Shown one piece after another: positions 43,948 through 63,025 of a DNA stretch of 64,000 nucleotides (its first letter is position 1; each line of letters begins with the position of its first letter). The DNA lies in NCBI RefSeq assembly GCF_009755725.1, contig NZ_CP046619.1, positions 682,001-746,000 on the forward strand. Direction: 5' to 3'. This DNA comes from Diaminobutyricimonas sp. LJ205 (GTDB taxonomy: Bacteria; Actinomycetota; Actinomycetes; Actinomycetales; Microbacteriaceae). The notes below the pieces were generated by a model that saw only the letters and a list, made by a program, of their open reading frames with translations, was not told the DNA's origin and did no database searches. The translations under genes and the position numbers were made by a program.

Positions 43948-44076
43948 TAGTCCGCTGGTTGAGGAGCGCCCGAGCGCAGCGAGGACGCGTCTCGAAACCA
44001 ACCCTGCGCAAGGGTTGATTTCGAGACGCGGCGCTCGTTCCTCGCGGCGCTCCTCAATCAACGAGTAGGGACTACT
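43946..44076. repeat. Long palindromic repeat between convergent genes
   Basis: Nested inverted repeats: AGTAGTCC (43946-43953) with GGACTACT (44069-44076); TTGAGGAGCGCC (43959-43970) with GGCGCTCCTCAA (44046-44057); and GCGTCTCGAAA plus AACCCT (43987-44005) with AGGGTT plus TTTCGAGACGC (44011-44029). The element covers the gap between the DUF2993 gene and the ABC permease and even overlaps the permease stop. It may act as a two-way terminator. It matches a degenerate copy at 34929-35026. Confidence 0.8.
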
Positions 44077-53512: not shown

Positions 53513-54592
53513 GTGTTCGAGTCAGTAGCGGTGCTACTGGCCGAGCATGAGGATCTGCAGAAGCAACTCTCGGATCCCGCCGTTCACGCGGATGCGGCCA
53601 GGGCAAAGAAGATCAACCGGCGCTACGCCGAGCTGAGCCAGATCAAGGCCGCCTACGAGCAGTGGCTGCAGGCGACCGAGGACCTCGAGGCCGCGCGCGA
53701 GCTTGCCAAGGAGGACGAAGCCTTCGCCGAGGAGGTGCCGAGCCTCGAGGAGGGACTCGCGACCTCTCAGGAGAAGCTCCGTCGCCTGCTGATCCCGCGT
53801 GACCCCGATGACGGGCGCGACGTGATCATGGAGATCAAGGGCGGCGAGGGTGGCGCCGAGAGCGCGCTGTTCGCCGCTGACCTGCTGCGCATGTACATGC
53901 ACTACGCGGAGTCCCGCGGGTGGAAGACCGAGCTTCTTGAGCGCAACGAGAGCGATCTCGGCGGCTACAAGGACGTCCAGGTCGCGATCAAGTCCAACGC
54001 CAGCGACCCATCGCAGGGCGCCTGGGCGCACCTCAAGTACGAGGGCGGCGTGCACCGCGTGCAGCGCGTGCCGGCGACCGAGTCGCAGGGACGCATCCAC
54101 ACCTCGACGACCGGCGTGCTGGTCTTCCCCGAGGTTGACGCGCCCGAAGAGGTCGCGATCAGTGCGAACGACCTGAAAATCGACGTGTACCGCTCGAGTG
54201 GCCCCGGCGGCCAGTCGGTGAACACCACCGACTCGGCCGTGCGGATCACCCACCTGCCGACCGGCATCGTGGTGTCGATGCAGAACGAGAAGAGCCAGCT
54301 GCAGAACCGCGAGGCGGGCATGCGCGTGCTGCGTGCCCGACTGCTGGCACGTCAGCAGGAGGAGATCGCGGCCGCGGCATCCGATGCCCGCAAGAGCCAG
54401 ATCCGCGGAATGGACCGGTCGGAGCGCATCCGCACCTACAACTTCCCCGAGAACCGGATCGCCGACCACCGCACTGGCTACAAGGCGTACAACCTTGACC
54501 AGGTGATGGACGGCGCGCTCGAGGCGGTCATCCAGTCGTGCATCCAGGCCGACGAGGAAGCCAGGCTCGCCGACATCGGAGACAACTCCTGA
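53513..54592 (+). CDS. prfA: Peptide chain release factor 1
   Basis: Recognises UAA and UAG stop codons. The 359 residues include the GGQ motif at 232-234 in [20 protein letters not shown], the P(A/V)T-type recognition block ending VPATESQG near 186, and the C-terminal RF domain. AAGGAGG before the GTG start, 3 bases after rho, shows coupling. Its stop lies just upstream of a 60-nt palindrome leading into prmC, whose product methylates the GGQ glutamine. Confidence 0.96.
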
Positions 54593-54613
54593 CCACCGAG
54601 CATCCCGATCATC

Positions 54614-54673
54614 GTGAGTTAGCCGAAAATGCTAGTGCTGAGGCTCAGCAACTAGCATTTTCGGCTAACTCAC
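54614..54673. repeat. 60-nt near-perfect palindrome at the 5' end of prmC
   Basis: The left arm GTGAGTTAGCCGAAAATGCT+AGT at 54614-54636 and the right arm at 54651-54673 are a perfect 23-bp inverted repeat. The 14 bases between them, GCTGAGGCTCAGCA, are themselves nearly palindromic. It ends 2 bases before the prmC ATG. The prmC reading frame stays open through it, since 60 bases is 20 codons. A related but weaker palindrome follows prmC at 55541-55598. Confidence 0.92.
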
Positions 54674-54675
54674 GG

Positions 54676-55521
54676 ATGGCGGGGGTTCGCGCTCGCGCCA
54701 TCGACACGCTTGCCCGCGCCGGCGTGCCCAGTGCAGAGGCCGACGCCGAGCTGATCATCGGGTGGGTGCTTGATCTCTCGCGAGGGCAGGTGCAGGCGAA
54801 GGCACTGACGGATGCTTCGGTGTCAGACGTGCACGTCCGGCAGATCGATGACGCGATCGAACGCCGGGCGCACCGCGAACCACTTCAGCACATCACCGGG
54901 GTGGCGTACTTCCGTTCGCTTGAGCTGGCCGTCGGTCCCGGGGTCTTCGTGCCGCGACCCGAGACCGAGTTCGTCGCCCAGTTGGCGATCGATACGCTGC
55001 GTGAGGTCCCGGGGGAGCCCATCGCGGTTGACCTCGGCACCGGCAGCGGCGCGATCGCGTTGGCACTGGCCACCGAGGTGGTGCACTCCCGCGTCTATGC
55101 CGTCGAAAACTCGCCGCGGGCGTTCGTCTGGACGCGCCAGAACTTCGCGAGCGTCGCCGCCGACAATGCGCGACTGCTTTTCGCCGACCTCGCCGACGCG
55201 CTGCCCGAACTCGACGGCACGGTCGACGTCGTGGTGTCGAACCCGCCATATGTGCCGCTCGGGGCCATCCCGCGCGATCCCGAGGTGCGGCTGTACGATC
55301 CCGAGCACGCGCTGTACGGGGGAGTGGACGGGCTGGATGTCGTCCACAACGTCTCGGCCACCGCGAAGCGACTGCTGCACCCCGGCGGCACCCTGGTCAT
55401 CGAGCACGGTGACGAGCAGGGCCCGATGATCGCTGCGCTGCTCCAGGCCGACGGCTGGCGCGCGGTCGCAACTCATCGCGACCTGCTCGACCGCGACCGA
55501 GCCACCACCGCACTGCGCTAA
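54676..55521 (+). CDS. prmC: Protein-(glutamine-N5) methyltransferase, release factor-specific
   Basis: Methylates the GGQ glutamine of release factors with SAM. The 281 residues carry the SAM-binding VDLGTGSGAIALALA at 118-132 and the catalytic NPPY at 189-192 (VVVSNPPYVPL). The N-terminal helical domain (about 1-90) includes AVRPRGV-like release-factor-binding residues. The ATG lies 2 bases after a 60-nt palindrome that occupies the usual ribosome-site position. A frame open back to the prfA stop contains a CTG with GGAG upstream, so the true start is uncertain. Confidence 0.9.
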   Translation: MAGVRARAIDTLARAGVPSAEADAELIIGWVLDLSRGQVQAKALTDASVSDVHVRQIDDAIERRAHREPLQHITGVAYFRSLELAVGPGVFVPRPETEFVAQLAIDTLREVPGEPIAVDLGTGSGAIALALATEVVHSRVYAVENSPRAFVWTRQNFASVAADNARLLFADLADALPELDGTVDVVVSNPPYVPLGAIPRDPEVRLYDPEHALYGGVDGLDVVHNVSATAKRLLHPGGTLVIEHGDEQGPMIAALLQADGWRAVATHRDLLDRDRATTALR

Positions 55522-55540
55522 CCGCTGCCGCACCCGCTGC

Positions 55541-55598
55541 CGCTAGTGTTCTGGCCTTGCGCTAGTGGAGTTGCGCGCGCGAAGCCGAAACACTAGCG
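55541..55598. repeat. Related palindrome after prmC
   Basis: CGCTAGTGTT (55541-55550) and AACACTAGCG (55589-55598) are perfect 10-bp inverted repeats, with an internal GCGCTAGTGG. The stretch AGCCGAAACACTAGCGCT resembles AGCCGAAAATGCTAGTGCT of the palindrome before prmC. It lies between convergent prmC and HAD genes. Confidence 0.75.
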
Positions 55599-55625
55599 CT
55601 CGCGGAAACCGGCACAGTACTGCCC

Positions 55626-62979: not shown

Positions 62980-63025
62980 CTCGCTGGTCGAGCCTTGGCG
63001 GAAAACGTCAAGCTCGACCAGCGAG
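62980..63025. repeat. Palindromic element between atpA and atpG
   Basis: CTCGCTGGTCGAGC (62980-62993) and GCTCGACCAGCGAG (63012-63025) are a perfect 14-bp inverted repeat with an 18-base loop. It lies in the 101-base gap between atpA and atpG, unusually long for this operon. Its arm core GCTCGACCAGCG is the same as that inserted in lysA. Confidence 0.88.

Follow-up and report, generated by a model that had tools for sequence, protein, structure and literature searches.

The palindrome between prfA and prmC

The window, which is the whole 64-kb stretch of DNA that was analysed, contains the genes rho, prfA and prmC in this order, and a palindrome lies in the gap between prfA and prmC. The features of this locus are the following:

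53513-54592, plus strand: prfA (peptide chain release factor 1), the upstream neighbour; open reading frame, named from the rho-prfA-prmC order
54589-54675, plus strand: open frame from a CTG through the palindrome into prmC, read from the sequence; a possible but unproven N-terminal extension
54613-54674, no strand: entire perfect inverted repeat of the window copy, including CG/CG, 2 bp on each side
54615-54636, plus strand: left arm of the conserved palindrome unit, TGAGTTAGCCGAAAATGCTAGT, kept in 11 genomic copies
54637-54650, no strand: hypervariable 14-nt centre, here GCTGAGGCTCAGCA, defined by comparison of the centres between copies
54651-54672, plus strand: right arm, ACTAGCATTTTCGGCTAACTCA, the exact reverse complement of the left arm (sequence inspection and copies)
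54676-55521, plus strand: conserved coding part of prmC, ATG to stop; open reading frame, TIGR03534 (4e-69) and alignment with the nearest relative

In the window sequence, perfect arms of 24 bp (54613-54636 and 54651-54674) enclose a centre at 54637-54650. The initial annotation had described a perfect 23-bp inverted repeat ending two bases before the ATG of prmC; the repeat is indeed real and perfect and adjoins the ATG, but its arms are 24 bp long, its positions were off by 1-2 bp and its end at 54674 leaves a gap of only one base to the ATG at 54676. The centre had also been described as self-complementary and, indeed, further pairing is possible within the 14 nt of GCTGAGGCTCAGCA. The palindrome is the best inverted repeat of the window, the next perfect ones having arms of 14-15 bp, and the stretch is predicted to fold as RNA with -68 kcal/mol (z = -12.3), a value as good being found in none of 200 shuffled sequences. 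A search of the window with Rfam returned tRNA only and no match for the palindrome, a terminator and promoter scan gave no match, and plasmid and phage records gave no match to the window neighbourhood.

Other repeats were seen elsewhere in the window. Directly behind the prmC stop (55534-55605) is an imperfect inverted repeat (76%) with the outer motifs CTAGTGTT and AACACTAG; its core, GCCGAAACACTAG, was present in no other locus examined, and the repeat did not match the type-A model described below. A nested palindromic repeat at 43953-44063 (CGCTGGTTGAGGAGCGCC ... CGCGTCTCGAAACCAACCCT / AGGGTTGATTTCGAGACGCG ... GGCGCTCCTCAATCAACG) apparently belongs to another interspersed palindrome family, and a perfect 14-bp inverted repeat at 62980-63025 (CTCGCTGGTCGAGC / GCTCGACCAGCGAG) resembles palindromes of the GGTTGAG/GGTCGAG type.

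The start of prmC

In the nearest relative (G002), in which the prfA-prmC flanks align at 86% and 77%, prmC follows directly after the prfA stop (..CTGACCGTGAACACTGTGTCGTCCGTCCGC) and there is no element in between. The window palindrome had been taken for an inserted, repeated element, and its absence from a junction with both flanks alignable bears this out. PrmC of the window, MAGVRARAIDTLARAGV from ATG 54676, aligns with SSVRASAIDVLARAGI of the relative; since the protein of the relative aligns from about this ATG, the conserved part of PrmC starts after the element.

This does not agree with the initial proposal that the element lies inside the ancestral prmC coding sequence, like a Rickettsia-type palindromic element inserted in frame whose 20 codons form part of the N-terminus of PrmC, with CTG 54589 as start. 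Much of what had been described is present: the frame is open from the element into prmC, the in-frame CTG overlaps the prfA stop, GGAG is found 7 nt upstream of it, and no ribosome site is visible ahead of ATG 54676. Initiation at CTG 54589 would add 29 codons and is a possible start judged from the sequence, and by sequence inspection relatives have 15-27 residues before the conserved AGV/AGI, whereas ATG 54676 gives 14. However, prmC of the nearest relative stands right behind prfA, the window copy lies upstream of the conserved PrmC start and each of the other 19 copies in the genome is intergenic. Sequence inspection also revealed that one of the three frames of the arm is free of stops and that the window centre has no stop, so an open frame is roughly a one-in-three event; the 20 in-frame codons are best read as chance. 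Rickettsia palindromic elements are likewise palindromic and interspersed, and one frame is open at the prmC site, but the elements described here are intergenic and not inside conserved genes; in size and arms the Rickettsia elements are unrelated to the window palindrome, a comparison made from general knowledge and not by sequence. We therefore consider a Rickettsia-type element very unlikely.

A hairpin in the RNA would, as modelled, cover the prmC start region just before the ATG. Because the hairpin swallows this region, translation of PrmC is predicted to be leaderless, coupled or started upstream. Most likely, synthesis of PrmC begins at ATG 54676, immediately after the hairpin; the element probably alters the translation of PrmC and leaves its conserved sequence unaltered.

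Two families of palindromes in the genome

The genome to which the window belongs (G000) is a single contig of 3,222,608 bases starting at dnaA, and the copy numbers given here are copies retrieved by searching it. A genome-wide search for the arm, as proposed in the initial annotation, did reveal further copies and gave, in total, 11 intact palindromes and one decayed palindrome, which we call type A. In an alignment of the genomic copies the arms were 95% identical. The centre has 14 nt in 10 copies and 15 nt in one; its pairwise identity is 38% compared to 34% expected from composition, and type-A centres are thus random in sequence. The outermost CG/CG pairs of the window copy are present in about half of the type-A copies and are not conserved in the family, so the conserved unit of type A amounts to 58 bp (54615-54672). 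Changes in the type-A arms are one-sided and never compensatory, which argues for a constraint that acts on the sequence and not on pairing.

A covariance model built from the type-A copies led to a sister type B with the arm TGAGGTGCCCAAAAGTCCTAGT, present in 8 copies. Type B has 22-bp arms and a 14-nt centre, the same size and layout as type A; the arms of both types end in TGAG...CTCA and have 14 of 22 positions in common. Of 300 genomes of the family searched with the same model, 19 had related palindromes. The exact type-A arm had no match in all of GTDB r220 and IMG/VR besides its own record, which was excluded, and type A is therefore narrow.

The 20 copies of types A and B are all confined to short gaps between genes or to gene ends; for the 19 besides the window copy these are short intergenic gaps, mostly at gene ends. 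Their arrangement towards the neighbouring genes is mixed (convergent, tandem and divergent). Nine of the 20 are located within 175 kb of the origin, and the largest 350-kb cluster had p = 0.008 in a scan that was chosen post hoc. Many copies of both types have a C-rich stretch in front of them and a G-rich one behind, which may reflect a target preference, and one type-B palindrome near the origin (L050, 1889-1970) is about 5 bp away from a parS-like site, GTTTCACGTGAAAC. An integron attC-like site was considered and rejected, since the copies are dispersed and the GTT/AAC boxes stand in the wrong order.

A nuclease gene between palindromes

Part of the covariance-model matches were found in pairs about 1 kb apart, and each pair encloses a single gene and nothing else. 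In the genome of the window, a type-B pair at 2675538 and 2676583 borders both ends of a nuclease gene (2675598-2676638) whose product is similar to Pfam DUF559/MTES_1575. The unit, palindrome-nuclease gene-palindrome, has a size of roughly 1.1 kb and is predicted to code for a protein of about 290-350 amino acids. An alignment of 50 proteins of the nuclease family revealed E238, D271, H288 and D298 as invariant and E282 as near-invariant; the E, D, H and D residues correspond to the EDxHD pattern of a putative Vsr-like fold. The family profile matches Pfam DUF559/MTES_1575, 3hrl (endonuclease-like protein) and 3r3p ("mobile intron protein"), which we take to be the EDxHD homing endonuclease I-Bth0305I; the match to 3r3p (E 0.002) indicates similarity at the superfamily level only. 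In more than half of the members the N-terminal part is matched by AbiEi models of PADLOC, and the product of the bordered gene is therefore predicted to combine a C-terminal nuclease of the EDxHD (Vsr/DUF559-like) kind with an AbiEi-like part at its N-terminus.

The nuclease lineage was present in 83 of 120 genomes of the family, with up to 9 copies each. A search against phages gave no match, one against plasmids gave three Arthrobacter replicons, at least two of them with palindromes at the gene, and a protein scan of named genomes returned a single distant relative only. A second nuclease paralogue of the window's genome, at 2324832, has four palindromes of a third type (TCGACTCGCCARAAATGGCCCATGC...) arrayed upstream (L066, 2490-2860); this array is followed by a run of GCGAGTCA repeats. 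A type-A pair around a nuclease gene was not found and no cognate type-A nuclease was identifiable in this genome, but the solo type-A arms are well kept nevertheless. The nuclease may have been lost recently, the type-B enzyme may act on both types or the host may use the sites.

To quantify the association, a palindrome was called at a score of 13 or more within 320 bp of the nuclease gene at 68 loci, which are the best-scoring nuclease matches from the search of 120 genomes and hence a non-random sample. A palindrome was present on the left at 40, on the right at 34, on both sides at 28 and on either side at 46 of the 68 loci; about a third had none at this threshold. In the controls, the frequency was 1/136 for flanks further out at the same loci and 1/42 for prmC flanks. 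Downstream palindromes begin between -33 and +53 nt from the nuclease stop codon in 38 of 39 cases, and in several loci the palindrome supplies the TGA stop of the nuclease gene. The palindromes are thus closely associated with the nuclease family, and on both sides of the gene. Left and right arms at one locus have a median identity of 0.93 (93%) compared to 0.50 (50%) between loci, and 24 of 26 left/right pairs are more alike than 95% of unrelated pairs. Paralogues inside one genome have different palindromes, which shows that the arm sequence follows the gene and not the genome; the arm types are specific to each gene lineage. Strong co-divergence of arms and proteins was rejected, since the correlation of protein and arm divergence is weak (Mantel rho 0.09, p 0.015) and gives weak support, not strong; a weak correlation would be expected if arms change fast.

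These data also bear on the idea that the palindrome is an ordinary bidirectional terminator or an mRNA-stabilising hairpin. The fold is very stable and several copies lie between convergent genes, as such an element would have it, but no T run follows the stem, the terminator scan called none and the window copy is located inside the prfA-prmC pair. Furthermore, it is the arm sequence itself that is conserved genome-wide, not merely its pairing, and left and right copies around one gene have their arms in common. Such a function is, therefore, highly improbable.

Presence, absence and inversion in relatives

The nearest relative has no palindrome at the prfA-prmC junction or at the site corresponding to 3176385, and has the site at 804696 in common with the window's genome. 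A comparison of the two genomes at 804696 shows 2 differences among the 48 arm positions and 4 among the 14 of the centre, within intergenic surroundings that are strongly diverged. In another genus, a solo palindrome separates a tRNA-like 3' end from the following gene in two species (G171, G311), and the same site is empty in four (G116, G312, G308, G310). Solo palindromes are, therefore, present or absent between species. Target-site duplications were not convincing in the copies of the window's genome, and empty and occupied sites of relatives have diverged too far for one to be read. At one solo site G046 and G313 have 1.8 kb of extra DNA, which by eye consists of a pair of XRE-ImmA/IrrE-like and PIN-like genes and has no palindromes, and which is therefore not the nuclease unit.

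A complete palindrome-nuclease-palindrome unit was found downstream of pgm in 12 species of this other genus. The nuclease gene is in forward orientation in four of them (G046, G171, G308, G317) and in reverse orientation in eight (G313, G311, G312, G310, G309, G316, G263, G221). Between G046 and G313 the pgm proteins are 99% and the nucleases 91% identical, the nucleases having opposite orientations, and the flip is best explained by an inversion in place via the symmetric borders. As read from these sequence comparisons, both turnover and rearrangement occur at the palindromes. In two further genomes (G315, G314; loci L201 and L202) the nuclease unit behind pgm is missing and unrelated palindromes, GGGTTGCCGTTTCTTTGACGG... 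and AAAAGGGTTGTCACTTTGTCGG..., lie in the gap. At the loci L256-L259, G046 and G311 have another left neighbour gene than G313 and G171; the difference extends right to a palindrome that they have in common, beyond which the flank is conserved, so that the palindrome looks like the breakpoint of a rearrangement.

The two orientations at pgm could suggest that the palindromes mainly serve to invert the nuclease gene, as a recombination or phase switch, with solo copies resulting from deletion between the borders. However, a change of orientation was seen between species only, a recombinase was looked for in vain and symmetric repeats can recombine in the ordinary way, with no need for a dedicated switch; of the explanations discussed here, we regard this one as the least probable.

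Another explanation is that the palindromes are sites maintained by the host, for chromosome organisation or regulation, and bound by an AbiEi-like DNA-binding protein; solo copies would then form a selected regulon and the nuclease gene would carry operator copies at both ends. The nearly invariant arms next to randomising centres fit this explanation, as do the small arm differences at 804696 within diverged intergenic DNA, the one-sided changes of the type-A arms, which point to recognition of sequence and not of a hairpin, and, in a test chosen post hoc, the mild clustering of copies near the origin. On the other hand, congeners have gained or lost copies, the nuclease does not vary in its catalytic residues, the arm sequence is private to each lineage, even within one genome, and the positions relative to genes are mixed. 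Taken together, we consider host-maintained sites rather unlikely.

Discussion

The palindrome upstream of prmC is interpreted here as a solo copy of the palindrome family that borders a nuclease unit of about 1.1 kb and would have spread via the action of the nuclease; it would be either a relic of such a unit or one of its target sites. We assign this reading a probability of roughly 60%. Against it speak, above all, the well-kept type-A arms with no cognate nuclease identified in this genome, and further the third of the nuclease loci with no palindrome at the threshold, the weak correlation of protein and arm divergence and the lack of a readable target-site duplication. The family looks like little-known selfish or mobile DNA that is not part of PrmC; mobility of the unit and cleavage by the nuclease are what we infer.

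The 58-bp palindrome with its fixed centre length would suit a dimer on two 22-bp arms at fixed spacing. A review states that I-Bth0305I, an EDxHD enzyme, forms a dimer on its target, which is nearly 60 bp long (PMC3943268), and the palindromes described here have this length. From this geometry and this target size we propose that a dimer of the nuclease recognises the palindrome, with one 22-bp arm for each subunit, and cuts near the 14-bp centre. Cutting and repair would then spread the palindrome-nuclease unit in the fashion of a homing element, and recombination between palindromes would copy, flip or remove the nuclease gene. Solo palindromes would be left behind as empty targets or relics, and one of them would have entered the prfA-prmC gap. 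The likeness to I-Bth0305I comprises the nuclease superfamily and the pattern of catalytic residues, and selfish spread by cutting would be the expected analogy. Unlike I-Bth0305I, the nuclease described here has no intron or phage gene as context, is bordered by two palindromes and has an AbiEi-like N-terminal part.

By analogy, the pairing of nuclease and palindrome appears to work most like the REP/TnpA_REP (RAYT) system: a single gene of nuclease type has palindromes at either end, many solo copies are intergenic and the palindrome sequence differs from one enzyme lineage to the next. REP systems likewise have lineage-specific palindromes with bordering and solo copies (PMC8266576, PMC3733652). 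Nevertheless, the features that define REPs, enzyme and tag, are not found here. The REP enzyme of a REPtron is an HUH (Y1) protein, whereas the protein described here is predicted to be an EDxHD/Vsr-like nuclease with an AbiEi-like part. REPs have 20-40 bp and typically a GTAG or CGTC tag (PMC3733652), whereas the palindromes described here have about 58 bp, 22-bp arms and a random centre with a fixed length of 14 nt. Neither tag is present at the ends of types A and B, and in other lineages the ends vary and neither tag recurs. MITEs and solo-LTR relics are also short, non-coding solo copies of the border of a larger unit that are present or absent between species, but each border described here is a full palindrome by itself, no convincing target duplication could be read and the enzyme is neither a DDE nor another known transposase.

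More tentatively, and with the odds somewhat against it, the units could form a new class of mobile element, in which a dimer of an EDxHD/AbiEi-like nuclease spreads and flips its own gene via palindromes of about 58 bp. Such a class would leave fields of solo palindromes, have arms private to each nuclease lineage and be widespread in Microbacteriaceae-like actinobacteria, reaching Arthrobacter. Neither a pairing of nuclease and palindromes nor a function of this DUF559/Vsr-like nuclease lineage was found described in the open-access literature, and the pairing may have been described earlier elsewhere.

A scope limited to prmC alone misses the repeat family and its link to the nuclease. The findings raise the questions of why arm sequences stay fixed while centres randomise and how prmC, as a gene of the essential type, copes with a 24-bp hairpin at the start codon. 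DUF559/Vsr-like nuclease proteins are common in actinobacteria, and palindromic borders private to each nuclease turn hypothetical proteins into a testable element family. Each nuclease is given a predicted target site and a class of scattered intergenic palindromes is explained; the pairing would be a counterpart of REP/TnpA_REP that relies on an unrelated enzyme.
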